Below, in pieces: positions 2,343 through 49,282 of a stretch of 64,000 bases of DNA. The position numbers were made by a program, and so were the translations under genes. The stretch comes from Halichondria panicea (lineage: Eukaryota > Porifera > Demospongiae > Suberitida > Halichondriidae): the NCBI RefSeq assembly GCF_963675165.1, contig NC_087381.1, positions 2,480,001 to 2,544,000 of the forward strand, given 5' to 3'. The stretch's first letter is position 1; each line of letters starts with the position of its first letter. Under the pieces are notes generated by a model that saw nothing but the letters and a program-made list of their open reading frames with translations, ran no database searches and had not been told where the DNA came from.

Positions 2343-5300
2343 AACTCTCATGCTTACGTCAACGCCTCCTTCTGTGCCAAGGTGGGGGAGGGCTCAGTGA
2401 TAAAGGCCACGCCCACCATCATCTACAGCGGACTCACCAACAAACCAGTGTGTCTATATCTGTCTCATATGTCATAGTTATGCGATTACTAATACACATA
2501 CTCAACATTTTTCAGGTTTTAATGACGGCTCTCTGTGATTACTTGGTGGATAAAGATTTCTCTGATCCGGCCACCCTTAAAGGTGTGCTCTATTTCTTTA
2601 CATAAGTACAACTTCTCCCTTGTGGTTGAGTTCCTACAAATTTATAATGCTCTCTTTTAATCATTGATTGCTTTTAATTTGTTAACATGTCGTACCTAAC
2701 AGCAATTCTTGATCACTAATTTCCTTCCTTGTTTTCAGATGCTGTGGACATCCTGAGCAGTTTAGTCTTGCAGGACACACCTCTTTCTGCCTCGTCTGAG
2801 TACAGAATGAGCCTGGCAACAACACTGTTCTACAAGGTATAATATGTAATATTCATTTGGCGATAACATTTTTATGATGATATGTATATGCATGGTTACT
2901 CAGAGCGTTGACTCTTTAGTGTAAGTGTATATGTAGTACGTACTTTACATTCCCCTAGCTCAGAAAATTGTAACACACACACACACACATACATCTAGTT
3001 CATCGTTTGTATCCTCCCAAAGCCGCTCCCCCCTTCCCTCCAGTCAGTGGTTGTCCCACCCACCAGAGCTGTGTCAAGAGGCAAACAGCTGTTTTCTAGT
3101 ATACCCTCCGAATATCCGATAACACAACCGCTGACAAAACTGACCGCTAAGTTACAGGTTAGAAATAATATTATAATGTCACTTATTTAGTTGAGTCTAT
3201 GATATAATTAACATCTCGGTAAATGCATTGGAGATGTGATTTGTGCAGGCCGGCCAGCTGGGATATACAAATACATTATACAAACTGGGCAGAATAAGAA
3301 TTATAATTTTTGTCTAATACAATTATGTATGTGCCCTGCTTGATTAATCCTTAACCTAGTATCAGGAGCAAATGAGTAGATGAAGCTATGCATAGTATTG
3401 CGGAATCAGTATTGTAACTTGTTTGTAATGTGCTAAGTGCTCTGTACATAACGCGTTTGACTAAATAATTATAAGTACAATGAAATGTCAGCACTTAATT
3501 AGCGGTGTGACATAATTATAATTACGGCAATATTTGTACACCAGGACAATCAAATCCGCGTAGTAAGACACTCTATCTACTCATGTGCTCTTGATAGTAC
3601 ACACATGTTGTGTAGTGTGAAAGTTGCCAGCTGTGCACGCATGTCACCCCCTTATACAGGCGTCAGGTGAGGCCCAGTATATCAGTGACTGTCCTGTCCT
3701 ACCCAAAGAACTAGCCGCTGCTTTCGTCCTAACCACTATGGCACGTTAGCACATCCAGTGTATATCCTGTATTGATAACATCTTTTTTATACTTAGGGCA
3801 ATGCTGAGATAATATCAATTGACTGCTCCACTGCTAAGGTATGTCTATTATTTTTATGCCCTCTCGTTTGATGCAATTTCTATATCTGTACTATTCTAGA
3901 AACTGCCTGGCTTTGTCAAGATGCTCACATCAAAAGATATTCCCGGTGATAACAACTTCATGTCTGATCGAGATGCTGAGATCCCTGAAGAAGTAATTAA
4001 GTGATACAATAATTATTCATTTCGTATAATAATGCATGGGGAGGTTTATTAAGACACAACGAAGAATGAGGTTAGCACCTCCGTGTTTAAAGGTCCTTTG
4101 ACATGTACCATGTAAGCATATTAAGTAATTCCATCTACAGCACTTTTTAGGTAAGATAATCACACGAAGAAGTTATAATGTTGAACTTCCAATAATTGAT
4201 TGTTCAGAAGCAATTGATGAATTGATACTTTTGTGAATCAGTCAGAAATGCAGCCCGACTTTGCATACTTTTAGTTTAGATCATTTTTGAGAACCAACCA
4301 CCAAAGTACACATATAGCCGCTTGTGTCAATACCACAGATTGTATATATAGTTAATACGGCAAAGTTGAGCGTATGGTTTTAGCTAAGCCATGAAGTGCA
4401 AGTACAGAGTGAGATGGTTCTATTCTAAAGGAGCACTACTTGTTCTGTTCTGGTTTCTGCTTATCACCTTTGTCATCATATCAATGTTCAGAATTTTGCC
4501 TCCTCCAATAACACTTTCAGCAAGTTCTTATTGGGTGCCTGATGTTTTGTTACTTCTGTCAGTGTTGACGGTGCCACTAACAGGATGGCTGGCTGACGCA
4601 AAGTTTGGAAACTATAAAGTAGTAAGATTTGGTGTATTGCTTTTATTCCTTGCTACTGTTTTTAATTGCTTCTATTACTTAATTGAACCATTAAATTTTG
4701 TAGTTAACGTTTTGGTTCTGAAATGGTTTGTGTTTGTGATAAACGGTTTGTTTTTGGTAGGATGTGTTGGTTGCTCTTTAGTATTATTTCAACTGGGTAT
4801 GGATCAGATGCCTGATGCTTCAAGCTCCAGCATTTGCAGCTTTATCACTTGGTTTTCATGTAGTGGTGTATTGGGAGCCTATTTAAGCAATGTTTTATAT
4901 AATCTGAAGGTAGATTGCTTGGATGTTTCATTGCGTACCAACTACCAACAGGTTTGGAGCTTACTTCTTGTTCTATCTTTAAGCTGTGTTCTTATTTCGG
5001 ATTTTTGTCTCTCCAAAAATTGGCTAATAATTGAACCAAAGTCACCGAACTCTCTCAAAATTATCTACCAAGTTCTCAAGTTTGCAGCCAAGCACAAAGC
5101 TCCCCTCAATCGTAGTGCTCTCACATACTGGGAGGAAAATGTACCTTCAAGAATGGACCTCGGAAAGTCGAGATATGGTGGTCCATTCACTACAGAGCAA
5201 GTTGAAGATGTAAAAACTATGTTTCGTATTTTCTTTGTAGGTGTATCATTAATGGTGATTGGCTTGGCTATTTCTTTGCATCCAGACGTTGTATTGATGC

Positions 5301-8300
5301 CCAGTGGTCTGAACTTATGTAATTCGCAAATCGTGAGATTTGTTTCATATGATGAGACTTTATTTTTCATACTTTGGACTTTATTTCATGAGTTTCTAAT
5401 ATTTCCACTGCTTAGAGACAGGCTTCCAAGTATTCTAAAGAGAATAGGAATTGCTGCATTTCTTTTGTTTGCTGTGAGTTTGATATGCCTGATTCTGAAG
5501 CTCATTAATTATCACTTTGAAGGAAGTTTGATAGCAATTGATCAGACTGTTCCTATACTTTACAAATCAATGCAAGGATTGCTTTCTCAAACTTTTGTCA
5601 CTTCAACAGTTGAATTTCTTTGTTCCCAATCACCATACAGCATGAGAGGTCTGCTTACAGCATGTATAACTATCTTAGGTATCTTTTCCTCAATGCTTGG
5701 TTTTGGTACAAGGTTTTTTTTGGAGAAATACACTTGTGACACAAGCTTGTGTTTTCCTATTTCTTGGTGTGTGGAAGTAACTCTAAGCAGTATTGGACTA
5801 ATCTTTTACTGTGTTGTGGCTCGTCGGTACAAGAGAAGAGTGAGGGGAGATGGTTATTTTGCACAGACAATTGTGGAAGAAGTTTATGATCGTTATCTCA
5901 CTCCTAGAGACAACTAGTGACAGAATGTATATTATATATATAGCTATACGTATAGTACAGAATTGTATATAGAAGGTTTAGATGTTTAGATAATTAAATG
6001 TTGTATAGCCGGGAAATGTTTGTGAGGTGGCAAAATTTTGTTTTTTCGAGGGCAGAGCAGTGCCAAGATTAAAACTCCCACGCACCAGCATTCACATGCA
6101 AAGCTACTGGTGGGTGTGGATTCCTTGCAAATATTAAAACCCACCAACATTTCTGCTGAGGGCTCTGGAGCCAAATAGTGAAAATTTGCACCCATGAAAA
6201 TTTCCCGCTCTACAGTAGTTAATAATGATAAGATCTACATGGAAACTACAAGAAAAGTGCCTCAGAAGAGGTATATACAGTAGACTCTCGTTAATCCGGC
6301 CATCTTAATTTGTGGCAGTGCAGCTTGGCCAGAATAGCGAGGTGGCTGTATTTCTAATGACTAATTTTGCGGTTCTGTCTCGAGGATAACGAAGGATATG
6401 GATCATTCTACTCTCTAATCCAATTTTATCTGCCAAACCACACCCAAAACGTCTTACCTGGCTGTAACAAACGTATAAAATACCTAGTTTGGGGTAGCCA
6501 GTGCTGGCCAGTATATACGGAATAGCGAGTGGCCGCATTTTCAGGGCGAGTTTTGTGCAGTAAACATACATCTAGCTAGCAAACTGTGCCAAACCAAATT
6601 GCCGGTATATCGAGGTGGCCGTACTTCAGAGAGCCGGAATAGCGAGAGTCTACTGTACTATGAGACTTAGTATACCTACAACTTACTTATATTATAGTAT
6701 CCTATTAGCCAAGCCTCGAGGGAAAGGTTTGCGCATGCGCACAGTATGTAAATGAATAAAATCAGATGTTTTGTCGGTGTCCATGTGGTTTAGAAGCCCT
6801 CAGGCACTCGTAGTACCCTCGTTATGCTCAGGATATACTAAAGCAATACACCTTTGGGCTTCTAAATCCCATGCACAGACACCTCTAAAACATATTATGA
6901 TATTTTGGTTAGTATATATAATAATTATGCTAAGTTAAATAATCATGCTAAAATTGTACTTGACAGTCGTTTTACTGATTAAATTGTGCACTAATACGTA
7001 TACTTTTAACAGGTGTTTGCGGAGAAAATATCGCAATATGCTGGTCAACCTGTTGCTCTGGTACTTGCTGGTGAGTATATCTGTATGAAACTGGCATCAT
7101 GCACCTGTGTTGTCTTTGTTGCTTCTTACATGCACGTAAAATCTACAAACCTGCAAAGGACTATATACATGTACTTTTAGGATTGTGTGGTTCACTCTTG
7201 CCTTCTTAATATTGCATGTGTTATATACAATACATGCATGCATGCACGTGTCCATCAAAAATTATGAATAGTGAAGCGTGTTAATTTGTTATAGAAAGGC
7301 TGCCGTATACAAACGATATAATCATAGAGGTGATACAGTAACTATAATTATGTTCACACATTAACCATCCAGGCCGAGTAACACATGCAACCATGCACCC
7401 CCTTCTGTATATAGACACACAGGAGCATGCTGATAGGATTGCTTGTGCTGTGGAGGTCACTCACAAGACTCTGGGGCCACCCATACTCACTCTGGAGGAA
7501 GCCATTCAGAGACAGTCTTTCTTCTCCAGTCCTCGCAGAACCGAGCGGAAAGTGGGAGACACTGAAGGTGTTAAAAATGCAACAGTGTCGAGTATACCAG
7601 TGCCTATAATTTACCTCTATAAGTGTACTAATTATGGTAGTGCATATAATTATGTCTGTTTGTATTTGTTAAGCATTAAAAAATGACTCTCAGAGTTTCA
7701 AGCACTTGAATACATTCAAGAAGTTGCAATTTATCGCTTATTAAAATGACTTGTGTATATAGCTGCCATGTCTGGTGCTGATCACGTGATCACGGGCAAA
7801 GTGGAACTCGGCTCTCAATACCATTACCACATGGAGACACACACAGCCGTCGTTATTCCGGATGAGGGTGGGTTTAAAGTCCAATCTGCCACTCAATGGG
7901 TCGACAGAGTACAAGCCGCTGTTGCTATGGTGATGAACATCCCAGCAAGCTCTGTAGATGTATCAGTGAAGAGGATAGGAGGTGCTTACGGTGCCAAGAC
8001 CACCCGTCCCAATCTGGTAGCTGCAGCTTGTGCACTCGGTGCTTCAGTTACTGGGAGGTAAAATTGGCAAATCAATGCAGTCACTGTGGCTTTAATACTA
8101 AATGCTATAGCATTGAGAATGGCCCCAAAAGTTTTGTGATCAATTATGGCATGGGTGTTGTATAACTGGTTATTAAACGCCATGGATAGACTTATTAATA
8201 AATAAATTATAGCTGTTAGGAGATTATTACCTATATACAGCATGCATACAGAGAAGTGCTTTTTAACATGCAATCCAATGGTGACATTTTGAATTTGAAC

Positions 8301-11300
8301 AAAGACAACCAACGGCTACAACAAAGTGATGGTAACATTAAGAGGGCCATTCTTAGACTTAAAAATCTGACAAATGCTTATTTTCTTGTTTTAAATGAGA
8401 TTCTATATTAATATCCAGGCCTCATGCAGTTTAATTCGTTTGTTGAGCATTTTTAGCTGATCGTAATTATTTTCTCTTTACGGAATAAATCTTACACTAT
8501 TATATGTAACTGTCAACATGCACCGCTTGTACACAGGCCAGTGCGTATGTACATGGATCTTGAGACGAACATGAAGGCCATCGGGAAGAGATTCCCGTAC
8601 ATGGTTAGGTACAAACTAGGCAGCACTAAAGAAGGAGTCATCACGGCTATAGATGTTGAGATATTTGCTGACTGCGGTGTTGCCCCTAATGAGAATGCTA
8701 TATCTGTAGTGAGAGACTTCATTGACAATGGTACGCCGCGAGTTTGTCTCTAGTAGTATGTTTACAGTACACTGTTAAAAATGTGGTGCTATTGTAACAC
8801 CCAAAAGTGGGGTAAAACCATTGTACCAAATATGGCACTCATATATGGAGTTATTACAGCACCAGATTTTAGTGTTATTAAAACACTCATTTTGGAGTTG
8901 TAACAGCATGAAAATGTGCTGTACTTGCACTTTCTTGGAGTTACTGCAACTCCAAACTGTGTGTAACTTTTACAACTACACCTACAATGGTGTTATTAAA
9001 GCACTGGGGATGGGTGCTGCTGTTACTACAGGTACAGTTGTCATTGCTACTCTTCATGCAAAGCATAAAATATTGCATGCATGCTTATTGCACTTCTCGA
9101 TAAGCTCATGCACTTGACTTAAATGACGTAACATAATTATAGCATGTGTATAATGATATGCATCACGATAGCATACAATAAAAGTATGAAGATATGTATA
9201 CCTATAACCTCATAAAGTGTTTAATAACTACGACCACAATACACTTAGGCAGTTCGGGACCTTAAAAATAAAAAATAAAAGGATGCCATGCAGACATGCA
9301 CGTGGGTACTAAAATGTCAAAAACATAGTACAAGAGTTTCATAGAATGAATCTACTTCATACACTTCTTTCTCTACGATGACGAAGTAGTTCATTGATCC
9401 AGATTCAATAGCACTTTTTCTACCTTGAACGAACGTTGCATGTCATCCACCTGCATGTATATATTATGATGGGATAAGGATGGGGCTCACAAAAACAGTA
9501 GGCAGTGATATAAGTGAGTAGGAGACAATTATTCAAATAAGCCGAAAGCCTAACACTTTAACAACTGTTGTCACCTCTTCCAAATATCCAGTGTGCATGC
9601 ATTACTGTGTATAATTATATATGTATGATGACAGGGTTATTCTCGTTATAATAAGCATATACCCCCCCACACAGGATGAATTCAAGGGCAACAGAAGAAT
9701 CTGTTCTCAAGTATCAAGTATTTGTAACTGTTTATGCATTACATACGTGGAGCAGCAGCTTGACAAATATCATTTGTACTGCATCCTTCTTCTTACAGTA
9801 TTATCTTCAGAACTGAATAAAAAAAAATGTATGTTTGAAGATATGGGTTTCTATTTACCATTAGATTGTGACTGCACCAGTGACTGCATAGTCTTCGACC
9901 AGCTCCTGTAGCTTAACATTGTTCTCCTTTGTTCGAATTCTTTCCAATTTACCTCAAAAGTAAATCTATAGGTATCTTTTCCTGTAATTTCAAAAAATTC
10001 TATTACTACTGCAAACATTTACAGCTATATGCTTGAACACAATAATGATTAATAGTGAACTTACATAGACATAATCGGTCAGTGGTGGATAGAAGGTAAG
10101 TATATACGCACATCTGTAACTGCTGGTCGATCATATCACTCCTGATAGCACCTTTGTTACGCTTTGTTTTTGGACTATTCCTTTTAAAGAGCAGTGGTTT
10201 ATCTTTGGACAGATATTGAATCTCAATTTGCGACGCATATTCTTTAACCTCGTTTAAATAGCTCGACTCCATGAACCCTGCATGAAAAGAGTACCTATAG
10301 CTCTTACGATGCGATAATTTTGTAAGAAACAACCATTATCTTGTTGTCATTGGAAATTAATTTAACAATAATCGGAAGACAAAAATTATAATTATGATGA
10401 TTTGTATGCAAATGTAGATACGTGCGAAAAACCAGTCTGACAGGAAAGTGTTCCTAACGCTCAACATACATCTAACTGACGGACACGTACCCACAAAGCC
10501 CAACATATCAGACTGACAGACAAGTGCCCACAAAGCCCAACATATCAGACTGACGGACAGCTGCCCACAAAGCCCAACATATCAGACTGACGGACAGCTG
10601 CCCACAAAGCCCAGCATATCAGACGGACGGACAGCTGCCCACAAAGCCCAACATATCAGACTGACGGACAGCTGCCCACAAAGCCCAACAAGAATTATTA
10701 TATAGTTACAATTATAGTAGTGAGTAGTAGACTTGCAGTCTGTCTATGTCAAGCTTTTTAGCACAACAATGGTTTTGCAGCAACTTACTCTATAGTTCCG
10801 AGTCAAAGCAGTGTGCCATCTTGCAGTGTAGTACATCTAGCAACTTAGTCCATGTAGTACCAGAGCACAGTACAGAGCTAGAGTAGGCCTGGCGCCTTTG
10901 TACAGTTAAGGTGCACGCAGCTGTGTGCAGAGACTCTCATGCAGGCAGCTGTCTATCACAAGGTTCACGTGAGATCAGTGCTGCACGTCTACCACCCACG
11001 ATTTTGTTTTGTTTATGTAGTCTTGGCTACCCACCACGCATTTGAGTCTGTGCTCATCAATTAATTATGATCACATCATCAGTGTATGCCCTTGCATGGA
11101 AGAGGGGAGGGGTGGGAGCAAAGTAAGAGTTAAATTTGCAGGGCAACTGTACGAGTAGAAAGAACACACTATAAGCCAGCTACTTTGCTAAATACAGGAT
11201 GTATGATTTTTCAGACGATTGAATTGTTAATAATAATTATTGTTGGGCATTAATTTGTCCGTTAGCGTGACATGCACATAGTCTAGACCTCAATAGATGT

Positions 11301-14300
11301 TGCAACTTCAAACACATAGTTTTACAGTAACTAATAATGATAACTAGTACTGGTTCATCACATAAGTTATAAATACTGAATAGCTAAAATATTGCCGGTA
11401 CACTTGAAAAGTGCACTAATTTTTTCTTGGAAAGTTCCTCACAGGGCCAATTGTTCCGTCATCAGTACAAGTGTGCTGCTTCACCCCTGTATACATAATT
11501 ACGCATGTGATTAGAATTTATACTGAATAAGTATAATAAATAAGGTGACTATAATTATAATCTACTTGCATGCTTGAATATAAAGGTATAATAATTATAC
11601 CAGATTCAACTATTTTAATGGAACGGGTTTGTTACTATATAAGCAACTATTTATTTACACATGCAACTACACGAATCATTATAGACTGGCCTTGATTTGC
11701 ATGCAGGTGATTTGTAGAGGTGCTTACATTGCACCATGTATAGTGCTACAATCACACAATTCTTATTTGAGTAACACCATCTGGTGTATAGTTAGAGTAA
11801 TATGATTTTAACAACTAGGTAAGTGCATGCACAACACTGTTTAAAGTGTTCCACAAGCACTTATAAGTGTATAATAGCACCCTTTATTGTTCTAGTAACA
11901 CGTAGCAGTTACGACTGCACTCTTAGTGTTGTGATAGCACCATTAGGTGAGTGTTGGCATAGCACTTTGGGTGCTATTGTAACTACCCATTTTTAACAGT
12001 GTATATATACATATGAATGTACGTGCTCTTTGTTATAATTATTGTTGTGGTATATATGGACTGCTAGTATACATAATTATGTGTTGTATACCTTGTTGCT
12101 TACATTGTATCCCAATTAAAAGGTATCTCACTCCTTAGCGTACTACGTTCCCAATTGGAAGATTGCTACACAGCCATGCAAAACAAACACACCCGCCAAC
12201 GTCTTCTGCAGGTCACCAGGTAATAATGCATGCATGTGTACTCAACTGCATGTGAGGTATACTGCGTGTGAGGTATACATGCAATGAAATTTAAGTTACA
12301 GTACATATACATCAAACATTCTTTAATGGCATATTGCATAATAATTATAATAGTATTACTATTATAGTGCACAGTGTGCAAAATAATTACAGGTGGCCAC
12401 TGGCCAATTTTCGTGCACTGATGCAATTAACAAATTGCCAGCAAATGATCAGCCAGTGCATCCGATCAATCGTTTTGGGTGTGTGCTTCCTCGCACGCGC
12501 AGAACAGTTTGCACAAACGTGTTAAAAATTGCTAGATCGTGAGATTATTATACTTAACAGTTCAAGAGATGTATCAAGACGAGTATTTATAGTGTTATGT
12601 AATTGTTACATTCTCTTTAGGTACTCTACCGAGTATCTTTATGATGGAGACCATGATAGACCACCTCGCCACCTCATTGGGCATGGACGTCGAGGTTGTC
12701 AAGGTAGCCAATCTATACAAGAATGGTCACATGACTCTTGTCGGGAAGGAGCTGACTAACTGTAACATGTCGAGAATCTGGGAACGTGAGTTTTAATGTA
12801 TTTACGACTGTACGTAGAATAAGTTTATGTGAATTGGTATCAGTGAAACAATATTCTCTTGACATGTTATAGTGCGAACACATCTTTCAATTTATTCAGA
12901 GCTGTACCAATCTGCTGAAGTTGACAGAAGAAAGAAAGAGATTTCTGAATACAACAAGGTGCTTGACAGCTAGCTTGTTGTGTTAACTTTTTGTTGTAAA
13001 ACATCATTTACATGCACGATGATGTCATAATTGTTTCACATATACACTGTACAGACGAGTCGGTGGTACAAGCGTGGACTGAACATGATGCCACTGAAGT
13101 ACACTATCAACTGGGCGGAGGCCACACCCTATTACGTGACAGTCAACATTTACGCTGAGGATGGCACAGTGGCCATAGCTCACGGTGGTGTGGAGATGGG
13201 CCAGGGGATAAACACCAAGGCAATTAAGACCTTGTGTGCAGTATAGTATATAGACACTAACATGTATACAACTGCAAAAAGTTTGTATTACATGTGCACA
13301 TAAAGGCTTGATTTTATCATTTCTCCGGCGACATAATTATTGATTGTGTAGTCAACTGTTTGAGCCAAGTACTAGATAACTCAGCCGTACAATTACAGCA
13401 TATCAATTGGAATACGTCTATTGGATAATTTACCTGCATGCTCCCTCCTCTGATAGGTAGCCCAGGTGGCATCAAAGGTGTTGGGTGTTCCCTTGGAGAA
13501 GATACGCATCAAGCCTACGGACTCCATGCTCAATCCCAATGGCATATGGAGTGGAGCCAGCACCACCAGTGAACTGAACTGTCTGGTGAGCCAAACATAA
13601 AAATCATACTGTTGAGCCTTCAAAAATTGACCTCTGAGACTTAGCCAATCACTTACGTTCACACTGGCTCTTATATTCACTTTTGTGGCATGTGCAGGGG
13701 ACCATAAATGCTTGCAAAGAGCTGAATAGTCGCATTGACAGTATCAGAGAGCAGATTCCCGGACTGGAATGGGAGGACCTTATACAGATGGCCAGCAGTG
13801 CTGGGGTCAACCTATCAGCAAGGGCATTGTCAGTAATGTCTGTATAATTATCATGCATGCCCACATAATTATATGTACAATGCATGCATGTAGCTATAGT
13901 AGGCTCTAAGTATAATATAAGAGATTGAGTGTGTTGGCAAGAATGGCGCTAACGAGTTAATTCCAGTCTAACGTTTGCACTCAAGTATTGTCTCCTGATA
14001 AGTATGATAGAAAAAAGTATTACTGTATAATTATAAAGTACCTGACTGAGCTTTTAATAGCGTGATCACGAAATACTTAATCTAATCGTGTCTTTATACC
14101 TGCAGTGTGTCTGAATCTTGTGACGGCAAGTTCAATTACGTTTGCTGGGGTAGTACAGTAACGGAGGTGGGCGTGGACGTGCTGACGGGGGAGACGAGGG
14201 TGGAGAGGGTGGACATCCTCTATGACTGTGGGGACAGGTAGGGGAATAGGAGGAGCTTATATTCACATTTATTTATGGATGAATGTATTGAGATGAGTAT

Positions 14301-29849: not shown

Positions 29850-29852
29850 ATA

Positions 29853-32230: not shown

Positions 32231-33561
32231 GAGTAGTATTTTTAGCCAGTATACTATACTGTTATCTGTGAAACCAGCATGTATTCCGACTGTGTTGCTT
32301 TAATTTATTAATTCATGTGTACACCGATGAAGTTGTATTATAACCGAGTTACTTCATTTCATATATATAGTTTCATCAGCTCGCAAAGAACGATACTTTT
32401 CTTTATAGGATTGTGTGGTTCACCATACTGTATAGCAGGTATAAGGTTTTGAAAATGAGGCAATTGAACTATTATTGTCGATTTTAAACGTCGACGATCA
32501 TGGTGCATGGCATTACTTATCACGTGGGATATAATAATATACTGGGACTGAGTAGTAGACTATAGTGAGCTATCAATTTGTAAGAAGAGAGACTCTGCAT
32601 TACAATACAAAAGCCCAAGAATTAATTTCGTATCAGCAAACTATACAAACGACAGAACCAGAACCAAACGACAGAACCATGCAACAACAACTGAAAAGGG
32701 TAATGAATGGACAACTCGAATAATCCAGAACAATCCGAAGAGGAAGGATGCACGATAAATCGGAAACCAAGGAAAAACTGTGATCACACAACATCATAAA
32801 TGTGGTATAACAAGTGTAATAAATACATAACAAAACACATCAGGATAGAATAGGATAGGTCAAGATAGATCACGTACAGCACATCATGAACAATCACGCT
32901 CTCGCCAGTACACACCAACAGCCTATTCTGATTCAAACTTTGAAAAAATCTTCAAGCCTAATCATGTGCTGAGATCCATGAAGTAGTGATAATACTGAGT
33001 GCATGGGAAAGGTTTATGGTTAGCATACATATTGAACCACATCAAAGAAAGAGAAAGATAACACCACCTTTGTGTTGAAAGGTTCTTTGGGAAACTTCCC
33101 AGTATATAGATCTACTAAGTGAATTTGATGTGGCTATTATAATAATAGCACTTTCAAATTGGGGAAATTTCGCTTGTGAATCAATTGATTAAATGCACAT
33201 GCATGCAGGCTAATGAATTTTAATGAGGCTCATCATTCATACCGTTAGCAAGAAAGATATAAAATTTGTTCCGTTTTATCGAGGTTTGATAATCAATAAT
33301 ACACCCAACACAACACTCGTTTTTACACCGTCAATAAGAAAGTTAGACCTTATGTTGAAAGCCTTTCCAAAGCCTTTTGGAAAACCTTCCAATGCTGATA
33401 CAGCACTAGGTGAATACATGTGTGAATCATTGGAATTGCTGCCTCACTCTATATGGCATACTTTTAGTTTCATTTGGAAATCATATAGATCTATAGCTAT
33501 ACTTGCGCCATGCCATAATATAGCTATAGTGGATACAGTGAAATTGGACACATGGTAAGCC
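32231..33561. other. Spacer between transporter units; duplicated with 50460-51061
   Basis: No gene supported. From about 32955 to 33540 it is nearly identical to 50468-51060, including a weak relic of the hydroxylase exon text CTGAGATCC. This shows a segmental duplication that also carried the following transporter copy. Confidence 0.7.
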
Positions 33562-35084: not shown

Positions 35085-35244
35085 CTAGTGACAGACTGTA
35101 ACATGTATAATATACTTTTTTGGTTATAGTATTTTGGTCAGCTAATTATGCCAACTTTAGCAATCACATAGTGCATGCATGTATACTCGTTGCTTTGCTG
35201 ACATGATGATTTGTGTATACATGACATGTGCATGCTTTTAAGAC

Positions 35245-35316
35245 GTGTTGTTTGCAGAGAAAATATTGCGCTGTATATATGCTGGCCAACCTATTGCCTT
35301 GGACAGGTGTTTGCTG
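35245..35316 (+). pseudogene. Well-preserved relic of the hydroxylase exon VFAEKIS...GQPVAL
   Basis: Reads VLFAEKILRC, then AGQPIAL, and is still followed by GTGAGT. It is the best preserved copy of the exon at 7013-7070 outside the gene, directly downstream of transporter copy 7. Confidence 0.75.
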
Positions 35317-38228: not shown

Positions 38229-39764
38229 ATGCAGTGCAAGTACAGAGTGAGGTGGTTCTATTCCAAAGGAGCTCTACTTGTTCTGTTCTGGATTCTAATT
38301 ATCACCTTTGTCATCACATCAATGCTCAAAATTCTACTTTTCAAGGAATATTCAACGGATATCTATTGGATGTACGGTGTTTTAGTTCTTCTGTCAATTT
38401 TGGTTGCACCACTGGCAGGATGGCTGGCTGATGCAAAGTTTGGAAACTACAAAGTAGTAAAATTTGGTATATGGACTTTATTTCTTGTTGCTGTTCTTAT
38501 TTGCTTCTATTACTTAATTGCACCATTTGTAGGCGACACTTTGGTTTTGAGGTTGCTTCTTTTTGTGATATACGTTTTGTGTATGGCAGGAGGTATTGGT
38601 TGCTCTTTATTACTGTTCCAACTGGGTATGGATCAGATGCCTGATGCTTCAAGCTCCAGCATTAGCAGCTATATCACTTGGTTTGCTTGTAGTGGTATAT
38701 TGGGAGCATATTTTAGCAATTTCTTATATACTTTGAAGTTGTTCTGCTTGCAGGATGTTTCATGGTACTCCAACTACCAACAGGTTTGGAGCTTGCTTCT
38801 TGTTCTGTCTTTAAGCTGTGTTCTTATTTCGGATTTTTGTCTCTCTCGAAAGTGGCTAATAATTGAACCAAAGTCACCAAACTCTCTCAAAACCATCTAC
38901 CAAGTTCTCAAGTTTGCAGCCAAGCACAAAGCTCCCCTCAATTGCAGTGCTCTCACATACTGGGAGGAAGACATTCCTTCAAGAATGGACCTGGGAAAGT
39001 CGAGATATGGTGGTCCATTCACTACAGAGCAAGTTGAAGATGTAAAGACTATGTTTCGTATTCTCTTAGTAGGTTTTCCGTTAGTATTGATTGGTTCGCC
39101 ATTTTTCTTGTATCCAGGAATGGATATATTGAAGCCCTATGGTTTTAATTTATGTAGTGCAAAAGTAGTGAAACTATTTTCATATGACGAAGTTTGGTGT
39201 TTCATAGTTTGGACGTTAGTGCACGAGTTTGTAATCTTTCCACTGTTTAGAGACAGGCTTCCAAGTATTCTAAAGAGGATAGGAATTGCTTCATTTCTTT
39301 CTGCATCTGTGAGTTTGATATGCTTGATTCTCAGCCTCATTAATTATCACTTTGAAGGAGGTTTGATAGCAATTGATTGGACCATTTCTGTACTTTACAG
39401 ATCAATGCAAGGATTGATTGCTCAAACTCTCGTCTCTTCAGCAATAGAATTTATTTGTTCCCAATCACCATACGGTATGAGAGGTCTACTTTCTGCATAT
39501 GTTGTCATCTTGGCTCCTCTGTCTGCCGTGTTTGGTTCTGGTATGTCGTTTTTATTAAAAATATATACTTATAAGGCATGCTGCTGTTTTCCTGTTTCTT
39601 GGTGTGTAAAAGTAACTCTATGCACTATTGGACTAATCTTTTACTGTGTTGTGGCTCGTCGGTACAAGAAAAGAGTGAGGGGAGATGGTTATTTTGCACA
39701 GGCAATTGTGGAAGAAGTTTACGATCGTTATCTCACTGTAAACAAAACTATTGACAAAATGTAA
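38229..39764 (+). CDS. POT/PTR-like membrane transporter, group A, intact
   Basis: 511 codons, starting [17 protein letters not shown]. All family landmarks are present: [25 protein letters not shown], a central loop with [16 protein letters not shown], and CSQSPYGMRGLLSA. It differs from the other intact group A proteins in the tail (RYLTVNKTIDKM) and over the later membrane segments, for example the loop before TM8 (YPGMDILKPYGFNLC). It is preceded by relic hydroxylase exons (36152) and followed by a weak exon relic near 39829. Substrate unknown. Confidence 0.85.
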   Translation: MQCKYRVRWFYSKGALLVLFWILIITFVITSMLKILLFKEYSTDIYWMYGVLVLLSILVAPLAGWLADAKFGNYKVVKFGIWTLFLVAVLICFYYLIAPFVGDTLVLRLLLFVIYVLCMAGGIGCSLLLFQLGMDQMPDASSSSISSYITWFACSGILGAYFSNFLYTLKLFCLQDVSWYSNYQQVWSLLLVLSLSCVLISDFCLSRKWLIIEPKSPNSLKTIYQVLKFAAKHKAPLNCSALTYWEEDIPSRMDLGKSRYGGPFTTEQVEDVKTMFRILLVGFPLVLIGSPFFLYPGMDILKPYGFNLCSAKVVKLFSYDEVWCFIVWTLVHEFVIFPLFRDRLPSILKRIGIASFLSASVSLICLILSLINYHFEGGLIAIDWTISVLYRSMQGLIAQTLVSSAIEFICSQSPYGMRGLLSAYVVILAPLSAVFGSGMSFLLKIYTYKACCCFPVSWCVKVTLCTIGLIFYCVVARRYKKRVRGDGYFAQAIVEEVYDRYLTVNKTIDKM

Positions 39765-40422
39765 TTATACTATAGTCGGTCTCTTAGTTGTTTTACGGAT
39801 TAAATGTGTGTATGCATGTACTTTAACAGGTGCATGTACATGCTTGTAGTGAACATAACGTATCGTAAAATGCTGATAAATTTAATGTGTTGCCTTAATT
39901 GGGTGGTTGCCGGTGATCTAGTATATATATCTATCTGAATCATGTATCACCTGTGTTGCTTTTGTTACGTCATGCCTTCACTTATAATATAAATTTCTCC
40001 AGCTCAAGATGTTTTGATTATTTAGTTCACCCTACATTATTTCAAGTATGTTTGCGTATTGTATACAGCCATGCATGAATGTGTCGATTATGTCTGCATG
40101 ATCAAGATATCCATGGTGACGCTGATTCTGAGATCCTTTGACCATTTTGTATGTGAGGAGGTTTTAAATTATTAGGACACATCAAAGTTTGCGCATTTAT
40201 GTTGAAATACCAATCACATATAAAAGCGAATTTCATAATTAAAAGGCTTACTTTGTTATTCAGAAGCACTTGGTGAATATTCTGGTTATTCAGAAATGCA
40301 GCTGTATTGTCTGCACTATAGATACTTCTTAGTTTTAGTTTCATAAATGCCCACATAAATGTAGTTGCTCGTGTCAATGTAGATTGTAACGAATACGGAA
40401 AAGTTGAACGCATAGTTTAGCC
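39765..40422. other. Spacer between transporter units
   Basis: No gene. It contains a very weak relic of the hydroxylase exon near 39829 and the CTGAGATCC relic near 40128. The upstream phrases common to group A units are at 40320-40420. Confidence 0.5.
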
Positions 40423-41942
40423 ATGAAGTGCAAGTACAGAGTGAGGTGGTTCTATTCCAAAGGAGCCCTACTTGTTCTGTTCTGGACTCTAATTATCATC
40501 TTTGTCATCATATCAATCGCGAATGTTTTTCCTTCCATAAAAAAGTCTTATTGGGTGTACATTATTTTTTATTTCTATCAATTTTGGCTGCACCACTGGC
40601 AGGATGGCTGGCTGATGCAAAGTTTGGAAACTATAAAGTAGTAAGATTTGGTGTGTGGCTTTTATTCGTATCCGCTGTTTTTAATTGCTTCTATTATCTA
40701 ATTGTACCATTTTTCGGTAACACTTTGGTCTTGAGATGGTTTGTATTTGTGATATACGTTGTGTTTATGATAGGAGGTGCTGGCTGCTCTTTAGCATTGT
40801 TTCAACTTGGTATGGATCAGATGCCTGACGCTTCAAGCTCAAGCATTAGCAGTTTTATCACTTGGTTTGTTTGTAGTGCTATATTGGGAGCCTATTTTGG
40901 CAATTTTTTAATTGCTTTATTGGTGTTTTGCTTGGATATTTCGCTGCATTCCAACTATCAACAGATTTGGAGCTTGCTTGTTGTTCTGTCTTTAAGCTGT
41001 GTTCTTATTTCGGATTTTTGTCTCTCCAAAAATTGGCTGATAATTGAACCAAAGTCACCAAGCTCCCTCAAAACCATCTACCAAGTGCTCAAGTTTGCAG
41101 CCAAGCATAAAACTCCCCTTAATTGCAGTGCTCTCACATACTGGGAGGAAGACATACCTTCAAGAATGGACCTGGGAAAGTCGAGATATGGTGGTCCATT
41201 CACTACAGAGCAAGTTGAAGATGTAAAAACTGTATTTCGTATTTTCTTGGTAAGTTTGTCAATAACGGTGATTGGTTTATCCATTTCGAATTCATTGCAT
41301 CCAGGTTTAGATAAGTTGATACCCAGTGATTTGAACTTATGTAATGCACAAATAGTGAAGTTATTTTCATATAATGAGAGTTTTTGTTTCATACTTTGGA
41401 CTTTAGTGCACGAGTTTCTAATCTTTCCACTACTTAGAGACAGGCTTCCTAGTATTCTAAAGAGGATAGGAATTGCTTCATTTCTTTCTGCTTTAGTGAC
41501 TTTGATATGCTTGATTCTGAAGCTCATTAATTATCACTTTGAAGGAGGTTTGATAGCAATTGATTGGACTGTTTCTGTACTTTACGGATCAATGCAAGGA
41601 TTGATTGCTCAAACTTTTTCCACTTCAACAGTTGAATTTATTTGTTCCCAATCACCATACAGCATGAGAGGTCTGCTTACAGCATGTATAGCCATCTCAG
41701 TTCTTTTGTCTTTCATACACAGTTCTGGTACAACATTTTTATTGAAGAAATATTATACTTGTGAGGCAAGCTTGTGTTTTCCTGTTTCTTGGTGTGTGAA
41801 AGTAACTCTAAGCAGTATTGGACTAATCTTTTACTGTGTTGTGGCTCGTCAGTACAAGAGAAGAGTGAGGGGAGATGGTTATTTTGCACAGACAATTGTG
41901 GAAGAAGTTTACGATCGTTATCTCACTCCAAGAGACAACTAG
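40423..41942 (+). pseudogene. POT-like transporter, group A, with a single one-base frameshift
   Basis: Open over the whole length except for one shift: codons 1-48 are in the first frame, then from GVLLLLSIL-equivalent codons onward the frame is +2. Comparison with other copies places the lesion in the T run 40565-40570, where one T is missing. The remaining ~455 codons are open through DRYLTPRDN. This could be a very recent pseudogene, an allele, or a sequencing error in a homopolymer. Confidence 0.8.
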
Positions 41943-42092
41943 CTATTAACAGACTGTAACATGCATATAATTATAGTATTTGGTATTACAACTTTAGCAG
42001 TCATTACTATTATCATATAGTTAGTGCATGTATACTCACTCGTTGCTTTGCTGATCATGATTAGATTTGTGTATGTGCGCATGTTTTTAAGA

Positions 42093-42138
42093 AGTGTTCG
42101 GGGAGAAAATATCGCACTTGGACAGCTAGGTGCTTGAT
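42093..42138 (+). pseudogene. Relic of the hydroxylase exon VFAEKIS
   Basis: GTGTTCGGGGAGAAAATATC matches the start of the exon at 7013, downstream of the 40423 copy. Confidence 0.6.
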
Positions 42139-42584
42139 GGTGCATGAGTACTATGCTGTTATCTGTGAAACCAGCATAATTATGATGAAGTTGTAGTATA
42201 ACAGAGTTACTTCATCTCATAGTATAATTTCATCAGCTCACAAAGAACGGTATTTTTATTTATTGGATTGTGTGTACCGTATAGCAGCTAGGTACTGCCC
42301 TTTGCAGCTCAATTGGAAGTAAATTAAAAACAAAAAAACCCTTGAGATAAGTGTAACAGTAAACCACAATACTATATATGGAGCAAGGACAAAATTTGGG
42401 AACAATAGTGTAAGACCAGTTTAATTTGTTGTTGTAGTTTTTTCACGCTATTTGGTGTAACTCATAATTATTAGCTCACGTGAAGTTTTAGTAAATAGTA
42501 AAATGCAAAAAATCACTTGAGATAAGTGTTTACCTGATGCTGAACCAGTCTCCAATTCTCTGCCACATAACTCCTCTTGATAAG

Positions 42585-43349: not shown

Positions 43350-43366
43350 ATATGTGGCCTGGTACA

Positions 43367-44366
43367 GTATCTTGTGCTTTCGTGGATCCTGATAATGATT
43401 TTATTTTCTTTAGTCTCTATACCCAGTGCTTGCTATGAGCATTCTGTGCTGTAGTATTTTTCTTTTAGCCCCAAAATGGCTAATAATTGAACCGAAATCA
43501 CCTCAGTCCCTCAAAATCATCTACCAAGTTCTAAAGTTTGCTGCCAAGCACAAAGCTCCTCTCAATCGCAGTGCTCTCACATACTGGGAGGAAGACATAC
43601 TTTCAAGAATGGACCTGGGAAAGTCGAGATTTGGTGAACCATTCACTACAGAGCAGGTTGAAGATGTGAAAACGTTCTTTAAGATTATCGTTATCCAAAT
43701 ACCACTGTTTTTTGTCTCATTATCAATTCGCAAATTACGTGTATATCTTGATTCCCAACCATTACCATCTATCGACAAATGCACTGCTTCACTTATTAGT
43801 CTCACATATCACCCGTGTGTCTGTGCAATGTTAGTAACGCTTATCTCAGAATTTATAGTTTATCCTCTAGTTAAAATGGAACCACCAAGTATCCTAAAAC
43901 AGATTGGATTTGCTTGTTTCATCATTGTGGCATCAAATATAGGAATATTGAGTGCAGAAGTTGTGAGCTATTTCCATGATATACAAATTTGGATTGAAGT
44001 AGGTAGTTCAATAATTGGCGGTCTCGTTAACTTATCCTTTTTGACGAACAGTATTTTGTTGTTTGCTTGTGCGCAATCTCCATATAACATGCGTGGTCTA
44101 TTGGCAGGATTTGCATTATTACTTCATGCTTCATCATTTTAGCCCTTGGTGAAGTTTTCTTCCGTATCACGATGAAGTTTTGCGACAAATGCTACAACTA
44201 TATACTATATTCATCAGTCATGGTAGCGATTACTTTGTTTGGATTCATCCTGTACTGCCTCCTGGCTCGCTGGTACAAGAGGAGAGTTAGAGACGAGGAA
44301 TACAATGTACACAGAGTGGTGGAGGAGGTCTATGATCGATACCTTTCCAACGACATGTATCACTGA
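43367..44366 (+). pseudogene. 5'-truncated POT-like pseudogene, group B (copy 10)
   Basis: Begins at the codons equivalent to VDPDNDFIFF, after the LINE fragment, so about 170 N-terminal codons are missing. It is open from 43426 to about 44136, where two extra T bases (SSFL region) shift the frame, then open to DRYLSNDMYH. The sequence is close to the intact gene at 27221. Confidence 0.85.
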
Positions 44367-44888
44367 ACAATACAACTAAGATAACAGAGCAACCTAGTAT
44401 ACGTACATGTATTCATAAACTTTTTTCTTCACATATGATAGTCATTATTAGCTTTATTTGTCTCTTAGTACGTACAGTCATGCACTATGTGGTTTCATTT
44501 TACCTCTATGTATCCATCTTGTCTTCCACACTGTCCAATTGTGTATAATTATCATCCGACTAGAAAAACATTTGCAATGTGACTAGGATTGGCCGGGGGA
44601 ACCACCAAAAAGCGTGAAAACAAGAAATCAGACGAGAGCATAACTCCAATCCGTTACTGTTATAATTGTACATATAATTTTAGTAGGATTATAATGATCA
44701 CATTAAAAGGTGGTTCATAGGACAACAACTTCAAAATTGAAGCAATTGAGGAAGCACTTGACACTTAAGCTTAGTGTGCGAACATGGTACATTTAGTTTC
44801 ATTTGATGAGAACCCACAATCATATACACATATATATAGCTGCATGTGTCGACTGATGGTGTTGAATACGGCAAAATTAACAATCTTA

Positions 44889-45045
44889 TGGGACAATGCC
44901 GAGGTAATATTAATTAGCTCCACGGCCTAAAGTAGGTGTATATTTCTGATATGACATCTCTTCTCTGTTTGAAAAAAAGATGTGTTCCTGGAGAGAATAA
45001 CTTCATGTGTCTGACTAGGATACTGTATCCCTAAAAAATAAGTAA
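44889..45045 (+). pseudogene. Decayed relics of two hydroxylase exons
   Basis: GACAATGCCGAGGTAATATT matches the exon at 3797, and GATGTGTTCCTGGAGAGAA with ACTTCATGTGTCTGA matches the exon at 3900, in the same order and spacing. Confidence 0.65.
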
Positions 45046-45263
45046 GGATTAATTATTCATTTTTATGTGATTAGGGCACATCAAAAAACCAGAGAAAGTT
45101 TCCATATATGGAAAGACCAATCAAATTTTATGTTGAAAAGGGTTGATTTTGTTATTAAGAAGCACCTGGTGAATCCCTTGTTATTCATAAATGCAGCTGT
45201 TAGTCTGAATCATAATACTTTTAGTTTCATGTCAACCCACATACATGTAGTTGTGGTGAATGG

Positions 45264-45319
45264 TAGCCTCGAATCCAGGCCGATTAGTATTTTAATCAGC
45301 CGGCCTGGATTCGAGGCTA
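45264..45319. repeat. Perfect-stem hairpin element TAGCCTCGAATCCAGGCCG
   Basis: A 19-base arm and its reverse complement separated by ~17 bases. A related hairpin with arms GCTAGCCTCGATTTCAGGCC is at 59406-59460. Probably a tiny foldback element family. Confidence 0.7.
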
Positions 45320-45571
45320 GGTGAATGATGGCCTATATACCGTATAGCGGGTATATTTCGAGGGTATTAACTTTCGCAGAGTGACCGTTAGAAAGGTTTT
45401 TGCGGATTTATTTTTCGCGGAATAGCAGCCTTTCTGAAGCATGATTAATTATATAATTATGTACGTACCAAAAGCAAATATGAGACAGTAGCTAATTATT
45501 TTAATGCACATGGATGCGCGATAGACTGTACACTCGTTATGATAAAAACCGACCATCACACATTCTATATA

Positions 45572-45748
45572 CCGTATAGCGGGTTATTTTCGCATATTTA
45601 GATTTATAGAGCATCCACACGAAAATAAAATTATTGCACGTATATAAGGTTCAACATCACTATAATTATTGAGCTGTACGAATTTTTTAAATAAGCAAAT
45701 GGTAGTTCATACAAATTTGCACTAATGAAAATTACCCGCTATATACGG
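45572..45748. mobile_element. MITE, CCGTATAGCGGG family
   Basis: Ends CCGTATAGCGGGTTATTTTC ... ACCCGCTATATACGG, flanked by TA. It is the best copy of the family also seen at 29853 and 48950. Its tips are shared with the longer family at 60264. Confidence 0.75.
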
Positions 45749-46188
45749 TACTAATCAGTCTGGCGATAAGAAAGTTAGCATGCACCTCTGTGTTGAAAGG
45801 CCCTTTGAAATGACGTACGTAGCACTTTCGTGAGCATAAAAAGGTTCATGGGACAACAATTCTATTGATTATTCAGAAGCAATTGAGGAAGCACTTGAGA
45901 CGCTTGTGAACCTTTCAAAAATGTAGTTACGGCATGTGTGCAAACTTTTAGTTTCATTTGAGAACTCACAATCATATACATGTAGCTGCAGCCATGCTTG
46001 TGTCAATGACACAGATTAATTAACTTCGATTGTTTTAGAAGCACTTGATGAATATTTGCTTGTAAAGCATTCAGAAATGCAGCCCTACTGTGTGCGTGCT
46101 AAGTTTCATGTGAGAAGTCAATAAATGTAGCTGCTTGTGTCAATGCAACAGATTGTAGTGAATTCGAATTTGAACGTATGGTTCAACC

Positions 46189-47691
46189 ATGAAGTGCAAG
46201 TACAGAATGAGGTGGTTCTATTCCAAAGGAGCACTACTTGTTCTGTTCTGGTTACTGCTTGTTACATTTGTTATCATATCAATGATGAGTGTCTTGCCTT
46301 CAACAGATGGCTACTGGGTATACGGTGTTTCATTGCTTCTGTCAATTTTGACGGTGCCACTAACAGGATGGCTGGCTGACGCAAAGTTTGGAAACTATAA
46401 AGTAGTAAGATTTGGTGTATGGCTTTTATTCCTTGCTACTGTTTTTAATTGCTTCTATCACTTAATTGCACCGTTTGTAGGTAACGCTTTGGTTCTGAAA
46501 TCGTTTTTGTTTCTGATTAACGTTTTTTTCATTGTAGGATGTGTTAGTTGCTCTTTAGTATTGTTTCAACTGGGTATGGATCAGATGCCTGATGCTTCAA
46601 GCTCCAGCATTTGCAGCTTTATCACTTGGTTTTCATGTAGTGGTGTATTGGGAGCCTATTTAAGCAATGTTTTATATACTCTGAAGGTAGACTGCTTGGA
46701 TGTTTCATTGCGTACCAACTACCAACAGGTTTGGAGCTTGCTTCTTGTTCTGTCTTTAAGCTGTATTCTTATTTCGGATTTTTGTCTCTCCAAAAATTGG
46801 CTAATAATTGAACCAAAGTCACCAAACTCCCTCAAAACCATCTACCAAGTTCTCAAGTTTGCAGCCAAGCACAAAGCCCCCCTCAATCGCAGTGCTCTCA
46901 CATACTGGGAGGAAGACATACCTTCAAGAGTTGACTTGGGAAAGTTGAGATATGGTGGTCCATTCACTACAGAGCAAGTTGAAGATGTAAAGACTATGTT
47001 TCGTATTTTCCTGGTAGGCTTGTCATTAATGGTGACTGGCTTGTCTACCTTGCATCCACACTATATCGATATACCCAGTGGTCTGAACAAATGTAATTCA
47101 CAAATAGTGAGATCATTTTCATATAATGTGAGTTTATGTTTTATACTTTGGACTTTATTGCACGAGTTTCTAATATTTCCGCTGCTTAGAGACAGGCTTC
47201 CAAGTATTTTAAAAAGGATAGGAATTGCTTCATTTCTTTTTGTTGCCGTTAGTTTGATATGCCTGATTCTGAGCCTCATTAATTATCACTTTGAAGGAGG
47301 TTTGATAGCAATTGATTGGACCGTTTTTGCACTTTACGGATCAATGCAAGGATTGATTACTCAAACTTTTGCCACTTCAGCACTTGAATTTCTTTGTTCC
47401 CAATCACCATACAGCATGAGAGGTCTTCTCACAGCATGTATAGCGGTCTTAGTTATTTTGTCTTCCATATTCAGTTCTGGTACAACCTTTTTATTGGAGA
47501 AATACACTTGTGAGGCAAGTTGTTGTTTTCCTATTTCTTGGTGTGTGGAAGTAACTCTAAGCAGTATTGGACTAATCTTTTACTGTGTTGTGGCTCGTCG
47601 GTACAAGAGAAGAGTGAGGGGAGATGGTTATTTTGCACAGACAATTGTGGAAGAAGTTTACGATCGTTATCTCACTGCAAGAGACAACTAG
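46189..47691 (+). CDS. POT/PTR-like membrane transporter, group A, intact
   Basis: 500 codons, starting [17 protein letters not shown]. Landmarks: [34 protein letters not shown], a central loop with WEEDIPSRVDLGKLRYGG, and [14 protein letters not shown]; the tail is DRYLTARDN. It is closest to the gene at 4391 in the TM4-TM6 region ([16 protein letters not shown]) but resembles copy 7 later on, suggesting a mosaic made by gene conversion. A hydroxylase exon relic follows at 47827. Substrate unknown. Confidence 0.85.
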   Translation: MKCKYRMRWFYSKGALLVLFWLLLVTFVIISMMSVLPSTDGYWVYGVSLLLSILTVPLTGWLADAKFGNYKVVRFGVWLLFLATVFNCFYHLIAPFVGNALVLKSFLFLINVFFIVGCVSCSLVLFQLGMDQMPDASSSSICSFITWFSCSGVLGAYLSNVLYTLKVDCLDVSLRTNYQQVWSLLLVLSLSCILISDFCLSKNWLIIEPKSPNSLKTIYQVLKFAAKHKAPLNRSALTYWEEDIPSRVDLGKLRYGGPFTTEQVEDVKTMFRIFLVGLSLMVTGLSTLHPHYIDIPSGLNKCNSQIVRSFSYNVSLCFILWTLLHEFLIFPLLRDRLPSILKRIGIASFLFVAVSLICLILSLINYHFEGGLIAIDWTVFALYGSMQGLITQTFATSALEFLCSQSPYSMRGLLTACIAVLVILSSIFSSGTTFLLEKYTCEASCCFPISWCVEVTLSSIGLIFYCVVARRYKRRVRGDGYFAQTIVEEVYDRYLTARDN

Positions 47692-47826
47692 CTAGAGACA
47701 GACTGTAACATGTATAATTATATGGTATTACAACTTTAGCAGTCATTACTATATTATCATAGCTAGTGCATGTATATACTCACTTGTTGCTTTACTTTAT
47801 ATTTGTGTATGTACATGTTTTTAAGA

Positions 47827-47872
47827 GGTGTTCGAGGAGAAAATATCCCACTTGAACAGATAGGTGCTTGCT
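47827..47872 (+). pseudogene. Relic of the hydroxylase exon VFAEKIS
   Basis: GGTGTTCGAGGAGAAAATAT matches the exon at 7013 and is followed by GTGAGT after GCTTGCTG. Confidence 0.65.
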
Positions 47873-49282
47873 GGTGAGTAGTATACTATGCTGTTATCTG
47901 TTAAACCAGCATGTATTTCAACCGTGTTGTTAATTCGTGTGTACACTGATGAAGTTGTAGTATAACCGAGTTACTTTATCTCATAGTTTCATCAGCTCGC
48001 AAAGAATGGCACTTTTCTTTATAGGATTGTGTGGTTCACTATTATTGGCTGATTTAAAATTTTAAACTTGACGATAGCATAGCATAGCATTATTTATCAC
48101 GTGGGATACTATATACTGGGAAATGGTTATCAAACGGGATACCATTCTTTTCTCCTTAGCTTAAATCTGTATTTTATGTGGAGTGTGGCCGCAACTTCAT
48201 GCATTGCCTACTGATGTGGCCGGGACTGAGTAGTAGACTGTAGTGAGCTAATTAATTTGTAGGAAGGAGACTCTGCATTACAATACAAAAGCCCAAGAAT
48301 TAAGTTCGTATATGTATAATTTTTATGGTCCAAGCGACTCCACTCAACGATTCCCCCTCCTTTTCTATAGTATCGTAATCAGTAGAACACATGCATGCAT
48401 GCATCCACAAATTATTGCTATTCTTGTTGGGTATAGGGTAGGACAGTCATGGATATGCTGGGCCTCACCAGATCCTAGGGGGACATGTACAATTTTCACA
48501 CTGCAACAAATTGCCTGGTGCATGGTGGCCACTATGCACCAGGCAACTTTCAGGCACTGATTTGTTGCCTGCACTGTTATAAGCAACCAGTTAGGGGTTG
48601 GTAGATTATGCTGGTATAATTTTTGTCATAATAGGCACATTTTTTGGTAAGAATTATGCTGGCATAATGGGCACCTTTAGAATTATGAGAATTAGGTTTG
48701 GAGGTTAATTATCTCCTTGGCATTCTAGATAGAGTCATGCATGTGTGGCCATTATTTATAGTTCGATGTTACTTGTGCGACAACATGGAGTTTATGTTGT
48801 GATTTCTTATGGAGGAATAATGAGGAATGGATATTTGAGTTGAAAAGAATAATGCTGCTAACATGAGCTTAATTTTTTTAATGCACATGCATGCACAGTA
48901 GATTTAACACTCGTTATGACAAAACAGCGACCATCACATTTCTATCATAATTTATAGCGGATTATTTTCGTATGATAGAAAGTGTATTTCGTTTTGTAGA
49001 ATTGCACTGCAATTGGTTCAACGTCACTATATTGAGCTGTACAAATATTAAATGAGTATCAGTTCATACACAAATTTGCACCAATGAAAACTACCCACTA
49101 TACGGTACTAAGAAAATAGCACTTTCATGAGTATTCATCACTGTTAAAAAGGTTTATAGAAGTTCTTCATTATATTGATTTATTTGGAAGCAATTGAGGA
49201 AGCACTTCACGCTTGTGAATCATACCTACTGTGCAAACATTTAGTTTCATTTGAGAAAACCCACAATCTTATATTAATTATC
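47873..49282. other. Spacer with repeats; no gene
   Basis: Includes a decayed CCGTATAGCGGG-type MITE at about 48950-49105, an inverted word pair TTGCCTGGTGCATGGTGGCC at 48510-48547, and AATTATGCTGGCATAAT repeats near 48605-48665. Confidence 0.5.
48950..49105. mobile_element. Decayed MITE, CCGTATAGCGGG family
   Basis: Left TTTATAGCGGATTATTTTCG and right ACCCACTATACGG tips, with the ATTGAGCTGTACAAA interior shared with the copies at 29853 and 45572. Confidence 0.6.

Follow-up and report, generated by a model that had tools for sequence, protein, structure and literature searches.

How does a gene that lies within an intron of another gene come to have relatives in a tandem array outside it? 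A window of 64,000 nucleotides from the demosponge Halichondria panicea, to which all coordinates below refer, raises this question. It holds an aldehyde oxidase/xanthine dehydrogenase-type Mo-hydroxylase gene, a transporter gene nested in one of its introns, and further transporter copies of two groups, A and B.

The host gene and its nested transporter

The host gene (2340-15395, + strand) was modelled by eye with 21 exons in the window, and by this model its 5' part lies beyond the left edge. Joined by eye, the exons encode an 834-residue protein that is collinear with residues 408-1245 of the aldehyde oxidase 7px0 (E 2e-167) and also with xanthine dehydrogenases. The collinear similarity spans the C-terminal FAD part and the Mo domain, which places the protein in the AO/XDH family; the N-terminal 2Fe-2S domains would fall left of the window, and the model describes the in-window part. 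Three + strand exons, placed by the by-eye model and the 7px0 alignment, are central here: exon A (3797-3838), exon B (3900-3992), the last before the nested gene, and exon C (7013-7070). Exon borders in the match tests were approximate (B taken as 3901-3996, C as 7013-7066, and the first exons off by at most ~15 bases). The donor after the host exon at 3660-3744 (C|GT) is in phase 1 by eye, and exon A requires phase 0. This off-phase junction (3660-3797) adjoins the left edge of the copied block described below (3759) and may be due to an error in the sequence, a non-standard splice site or a damaged host gene.

The stretches of protein that exons B and C encode adjoin each other, in order, in the alignment to 7px0, and the whole of U1, an intact single-exon SLC15A4-related gene on the host strand (4391-5917), lies between them. 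The transporter is thus nested in the B-C intron, and the preliminary description of this locus had placed it correctly. A profile of six transporter proteins from the window matches structures of SLC15A4 (E 2.2e-12) and of SLC15A3 (E 1.6e-6). Two sets of three transporter proteins were searched against Pfam, one of them to E 10, and none was assigned a family. The ExxER proton-coupling motif of the first helix, which we take to be a hallmark of the SLC15/POT family, is absent by eye from the start of the six aligned proteins. Since this motif is missing, with the Pfam result standing beside it, the genes are named SLC15A4-related and not working POT transporters: they resemble SLC15A4, a peptide/histidine transporter of the POT family, by profile, and differ from it in matching no Pfam family and lacking ExxER. 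Searches of viral contigs and of genome contigs for relatives of the transporter gave no match, and Rfam returned 0 matches at the gathering score.

A head-to-tail array of transporter copies

Besides U1, group A comprises U0 upstream (128-1662) and U2 to U8 downstream (30521-62484), with group B copies interspersed. All matches to the transporter unit are on the + strand, which makes this a head-to-tail tandem array. Intact genes are found at 30521-32038 (U2), 38229-39764 (U4) and 46189-47691 (U6). U3 (33562-35084) is broken, U5 (40423-41942) carries a frame shift near its start, U7 (56358-56841) is partial and U8 (60944-62484) is heavily broken. U0, also broken, has eight frame-breaking indels. 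Open frames are therefore those of U1, U2, U4, U6 and one group B gene (27221-28717), and U0, U3, U8 and the start of U5 have lost theirs. Pairwise dN/dS among eight A units ranges from 0.42 to 0.64 (NG86, 28 pairs, broken copies included). U0 and the exon C relic that follows it (together 128-1854) stand to the left of the first visible host exon; should the host gene extend leftward, U0 would lie in another of its introns.

Other features share the window. A Gypsy-type LTR element (about 51049-56323, borders approximate) with LTRs 98% identical lies between U7 and its 5' flank (50453 on), and has a 1538-residue open frame in which, by Pfam positions, integrase precedes reverse transcriptase. 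Two neighbouring long open frames, at 17173-18999 (- strand) and 19199-21220 (+ strand), each encode TRAF-type zinc fingers together with a protein kinase domain.

Relics of host exons A and B upstream of the copies

Exon B, and exons A and B with their intron, were compared with eight 5' flanks against 200 dinucleotide shuffles each. Exon B beats all 200 shuffles at five of the eight (U3, U4, U6, U7 and U8), and its score is reached by 18 shuffles for U5, 4 for the stretch after U8 and 67 for U2. For exons A and B together, no shuffle reaches the score at U3, U4, U6 or U7, compared with 4 at U8, 3 at U5, 1 after U8 and 168 at U2; the 5' flank of U2 thus carries no relic by either measure.

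The best-preserved relic lies upstream of U4 (36110-36546, + strand), where exons A and B and their introns align with 3759-4197 (blastn, E 1.3e-29). Identity reaches 31 of 34 aligned bases in exon A and 82 of 90 in exon B, and both exons contain frame-breaking deletions. The exons of this relic are 91% identical to the host and its introns 64-82%, as expected if constraint acted on the host side only. A relic of both exons also precedes U6 (44892-45041, + strand; 0/200). These two sites had been listed before, as 36152-36345 and 44889-45045, and both hold (by the blastn match and by 0/200 shuffles, respectively). Two further + strand relics of exon B, each at 0/200, were missing from that list: its 3' half upstream of U3 (32941-32989) and a relic upstream of U7 (50420-50496).

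The three sites previously offered as weaker traces fared less evenly. Upstream of U8, a weak exon B relic (58370-58405, + strand; 0/200 for exon B, 4/200 for A and B) stands, although the score at 58375 (106) only ties the highest of 60 shuffles in the array-wide test below. The sites near 40128 and 63110 are borderline and as sequence matches only suggestive. The first, a possible exon B relic upstream of U5 (40099-40138, + strand; exon B 18/200, A and B 3/200), has an A and B match (39984-40119) that overlaps the 3' flank of U4. The second, after U8, gives 1/200 for A and B and 4/200 for exon B (matches at 63003-63085). Traces of the transporter's 5' flank also occur near the right edge of the window (63266-63367).

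Relics of host exon C downstream of the copies

Exon C, alone and with 15-bp margins, was compared with ten 3' flanks against 200 shuffles each. With margins, no shuffle reaches the observed score at five of the seven group A flanks (U0, U2, U3, U5 and U6), and none of the three group B flanks passes (41, 42 and 182 of 200); U4 and U8 give 37 and 32. The exon alone gives 0, 1, 0, 6, 0, 1 and 163 of 200 for U0, U2, U3, U4, U5, U6 and U8, and 114, 183 and 161 for group B. U8 accordingly has no exon C relic. All five previously proposed copies of this exon, at 1801, 32187, 35245, 42093 and 47827, are borne out, with 0/200 in each when margins are included and 0, 1, 0, 0 and 1 of 200 without. These + strand relics span 1786-1854 (U0), 32172-32211 (U2), 35230-35322 (U3, the fullest), 42079-42146 (U5) and 47815-47884 (U6).

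U4 is weak in the short exon C tests, and its relic is seen in a longer alignment. Its 3' flank (39765-40090, + strand) aligns to 6943-7257, carrying exon C and host intron as far as the equivalent of 7257, and a wider alignment covers host 6872-7257 (E 1.3e-12). Beyond exon C, the match to the host exceeds 100 shuffles to ~7195 in U2 and to ~7175 in U3, U4 follows the host to 7257, and in U0, U5 and U6 the host match there does not rise above shuffles. Further past exon C, U2, U3 and U6 have other sequence in common, which points to one origin of those units.

Of the in-window host exons, only those bordering the transporter match the array

All 21 in-window host exons were compared, against 60 shuffles, with 14 non-unit segments that total 22,987 bases and include the 3' flank of U0; host exons further left lie beyond the reach of this test. 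Exons A, B and C exceed the shuffled maximum in one, four and three segments, respectively, the last being those of U3, U5 and U0, and the other 18 do so in none. At this stricter level exon C of U6 and U2 and exon A of U4 fall below the shuffled maximum. Controls with reverse-complement and reversed queries score 42-92, which is background; forward queries score 106-478 for exons A and B (U3-U8 and after U8) and 110-173 for exon C (five clear flanks). That the array matches only A, B and C argues against duplication of the whole gene, and the sequence matches make it more likely that a piece of the host carrying the nested transporter was copied.

Host exons clearly flank the copy on both sides, in host order, in U3, U4 and U6. 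In U0, whose 5' side is off the window, and in U2, U5 and U7, one side alone is clear, as it is, weakly, in U8. Exon C is followed by A/B in the U2-U3 and U3-U4 spacers, and by a borderline B in the U4-U5 spacer, as in head-to-tail copies. Exon order is thus kept, as had been claimed.

The companion claim, that intron spacing is conserved, did not hold. Exon B lies 398 bp before the ATG in the nested copy, and ~576 in U3, 1882 in U4, 284 in U5 (borderline relic), 1151 in U6 and 2538 in U8 (weak relic), a range of ~0.3 to 2.5 kb. On the other side, 1095 bp separate stop and exon C in the nested copy, compared with 78-164 in six others (U0 and U2-U6; 138 in U0). The ~0.9 kb of extra DNA in the nested copy (5953-6869, + strand) consists of a terminal-inverted-repeat element (6276-6657) with 33-nt arms at 85%, a foldback (6778-6877) and other repeat. 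Sequence related to part of this extra DNA occurs at other places in the window, such as 60256-60549. In the six other units that keep an exon C relic there is no room for the extra DNA. On the simplest reading, these elements entered the nested copy after copying.

Group B transporters

Group B comprises the intact gene at 27221-28717 (+ strand) and further copies near 22166-23732, 29040-29845 and 43362-44501. No secure relic was found in its three 3' flanks (the 29040 copy not included) or its four 5' flanks. In the latter, 1, 57, 57 and 45 of 100 shuffles reach the score of exon B and 12, 35, 53 and 20 that of A and B, the 5' flank of the 22 kb copy being borderline for exon B alone (1/100). 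Apart from codons 211-277, synonymous sites have reached saturation between the two groups (pS 0.72-0.81); U5 is out of frame near its start in the transporter alignment, which inflates the front part of its A-B synonymous comparisons. The absence of relics from group B was considered as evidence that nesting followed the A/B split, and rejected, because at such saturation relics that old are not expected to be visible. The nested gene had been called the seed of a multi-gene family: the relics uphold this for subfamily A, and the claim does not extend to the whole family, group B being too diverged and without a secure relic.

Common sequence of the intact B gene and U2 extends from ~160-175 bp before the ATG to ~115 bp past the stop (27046-28833 against 30359-32153, 59% overall, ends uncertain). 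In U2 it stops ~33 bp short of the exon C relic. This suggests that the gene may have come into a short intron as a piece of DNA bearing flanks of its own.

Within the coding region, an island of ~200 bp at codons 211-277 (for example 5021-5221 and 27809-28026) is ~91-93% identical between U1 and three B copies. Five A proteins compared with the B gene at 27221 give dS of 0.20-0.32 here, and synonymous sites on either side are saturated. This looks like gene conversion, because protein-level constraint alone would not lower dS. In addition, a ~5 kb block with group B and A units is present twice, at 27717-32644 and 43362-48322 (77.9% identical).

Exchange among the units

Two trees were compared, one from the host-derived 3' flank of seven units (U0-U6; unrooted, with U4 on a long branch) and one from the coding sequences of eight A units and three B copies; U7 and the B copy at 29040 are in neither. 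Rows of the flank alignment began 11 bases inside the stop of U3 and a few bases after that of U0. The flank tree separates U0, U2, U3, U5 and U6 from the nested copy and U4 (97/97), and rejects a U1+U2 grouping (p-AU 0.0017) and a U0+U3 grouping (p-AU 0.0013). The coding tree recovers both of these (96/98 and 100/100, respectively) and rejects the five-unit flank group (p-AU 0.0107). The tested groups were named after the trees had been seen, which makes these p-values somewhat generous. Because the two trees conflict, the units have evidently exchanged sequence, and synonymous dating is unreliable. From these alignments, the units are best read as mosaics formed by conversion or unequal exchange.

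The nested copy does not branch deepest among the coding sequences, where it groups with U2, and the data neither favour nor reject a tree that unites the other seven A units to the exclusion of U1 (p-AU 0.079). The present nested copy need not be the unchanged ancestor.

Among A units dS is 0.10-0.30. As a clock it had to be discarded, since dS and flank divergence disagree in both directions (0.16 against 0.43 for U1-U2, 0.28 against 0.08 for U2-U5). With the trees also in conflict, the earlier view that the history is directly readable and datable from synonymous sites cannot be kept. Flank distances from the nested copy to the array (K 0.33-0.43) overlap the range given by the same aligner for unrelated DNA (5-95%, 0.34-0.61), so that their size is unreliable; homology itself is secure from the E-values.

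Origin of subfamily A

Host exons on both sides of the copies, in host order and limited to the three bordering exons of 21, are best explained by descent from an intronic copy. Subfamily A outside the host very probably arose in this way, copied out together with exons A, B and C. An intronless transporter gene would have come to sit in the host intron between exons B and C. In one or two transfer events, a segment that comprised exons A and B, the transporter and exon C (at minimum what corresponds to 3759-7257, less the later insertions) would then have been copied at the DNA level downstream, on the same strand, among group B genes; the nearest such downstream copy now, U2, starts ~25 kb further on. 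The copied segment would have multiplied head to tail through unequal exchange, and the host exons, useless in the copies, would have decayed there while constraint kept them in the host. Conversion or unequal crossing over would later have moved sequence among the copies, the nested one included, and the nested intron would have grown through mobile elements. The relics, their limitation to three of 21 exons, their decay, order and strand and the tree conflict are observed; the direction, mechanism, number of transfers, late entry of the insertions and timing belong to the reconstruction. Several observations count against outward copying: U2 has no 5' relic and U8 no 3' relic; in U0, U5 and U6 the host match past exon C does not rise above shuffles; U1 does not branch deepest among the coding sequences; the flank distances are unreliable in size; and one group B 5' flank gives a borderline value with exon B.

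Other histories were weighed against this one. Whole-gene duplication is a common route, and the host with its nested transporter could have been duplicated entire, the second host then losing its other exons while the surviving piece was amplified. The 5' exons of the host fall outside the window, and so could an end of the array with more exons, given the 5'-flank traces near its right edge. We nonetheless consider this unlikely, as the 18 exons away from the transporter match nothing above shuffles and the three adjoining it match in several units. Marginally less probable again is an older array from which one unit moved into the host intron, with the relics being host fragments returned by recombination between nested gene and array. 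It would sit well with the conflict between flank and coding trees, by which nested and array coding sequences have exchanged, and with the presence of the deeply diverged group B among the array units. Insertion alone, however, leaves no host exons in the array; exons from both sides would have to be carried into several units, and a single initial copy outward is the simpler account of the relics. If the relics entered a single unit by recombination, this history is not fully separable from the preferred one.

That the relics are chance or low-complexity matches, a doubt to which the borderline sites near 40128 and 63110 lend something, is barely credible for the set as a whole and is refuted for the strong relics by E-values down to 1.3e-29, by 0/200 shuffles at five 5' and five 3' flanks, and by the strand and exon controls; for these, the earlier proposal stands against the objection of random matches.

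The nested gene and the array might still form one exchanging unit, a tentative idea that we rate below even chances. Conversion would keep the coding sequences alike while the host-derived flanks drift; the host would serve as a protected reservoir, its exons as tags of copying events, and U0 may sit in an upstream intron of the same host.

Comparison with known systems and implications

Parts of this picture are known elsewhere and appear unusually clear here. As far as the cited accounts describe it, one close parallel is the int22h repeat of human F8 intron 22, a 9.5-10 kb repeat inside the intron that carries F8A on the strand opposite to F8 and exists in three near-identical copies (F8A1-3; PMC7725122, PMC3211038). 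There too, a single-exon nested gene has copies with flanking DNA outside the host on the same chromosome, and these recombine with one another. The sponge locus differs, on that description, in that host exons from both sides were carried, the gene lies on the host strand, and the copies form a diverged tandem array. The LRRTM genes in alpha-catenin (CTNNA) genes, in the account cited, likewise are intronless genes in a host intron that multiplied together with their hosts, there complete hosts and presumably by whole-genome duplication, with lrrtm4 presumably having lost its host (PMC3933685); here the piece of the host is small and the multiplication local and tandem. The Sdic cluster of Drosophila melanogaster (AnnX/Cdic), as presented in PMC3395120, resembles this locus as a tandem family beside its parental genes that carries partial exon sequence of a neighbouring gene. 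Sdic itself is chimeric, exon sequence of AnnX having been turned into part of its promoter, and that account involves no nested gene; in the sponge, the relics are without known use and the gene is nested. Partial gene duplicates in general are treated in the review PMC3449122. No description of the present case was found in the open-access literature searched, a result of little bearing on other journals. The new element here is pairs of host-exon fossils that flank copies in a tandem array, together with signs that these copies and the nested one have exchanged sequence.

In the cases compared, so far as the cited accounts go, a nested gene multiplied along with either its entire host or nothing but intronic DNA. 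At this locus, host exons on both sides mark the copies as probable DNA-level descendants of the nested gene, and these exon fossils give a direction to the family history that the coding sequences hide through exchange. Looking for such fossils in other genomes could serve as a general way of testing where tandem families originated.
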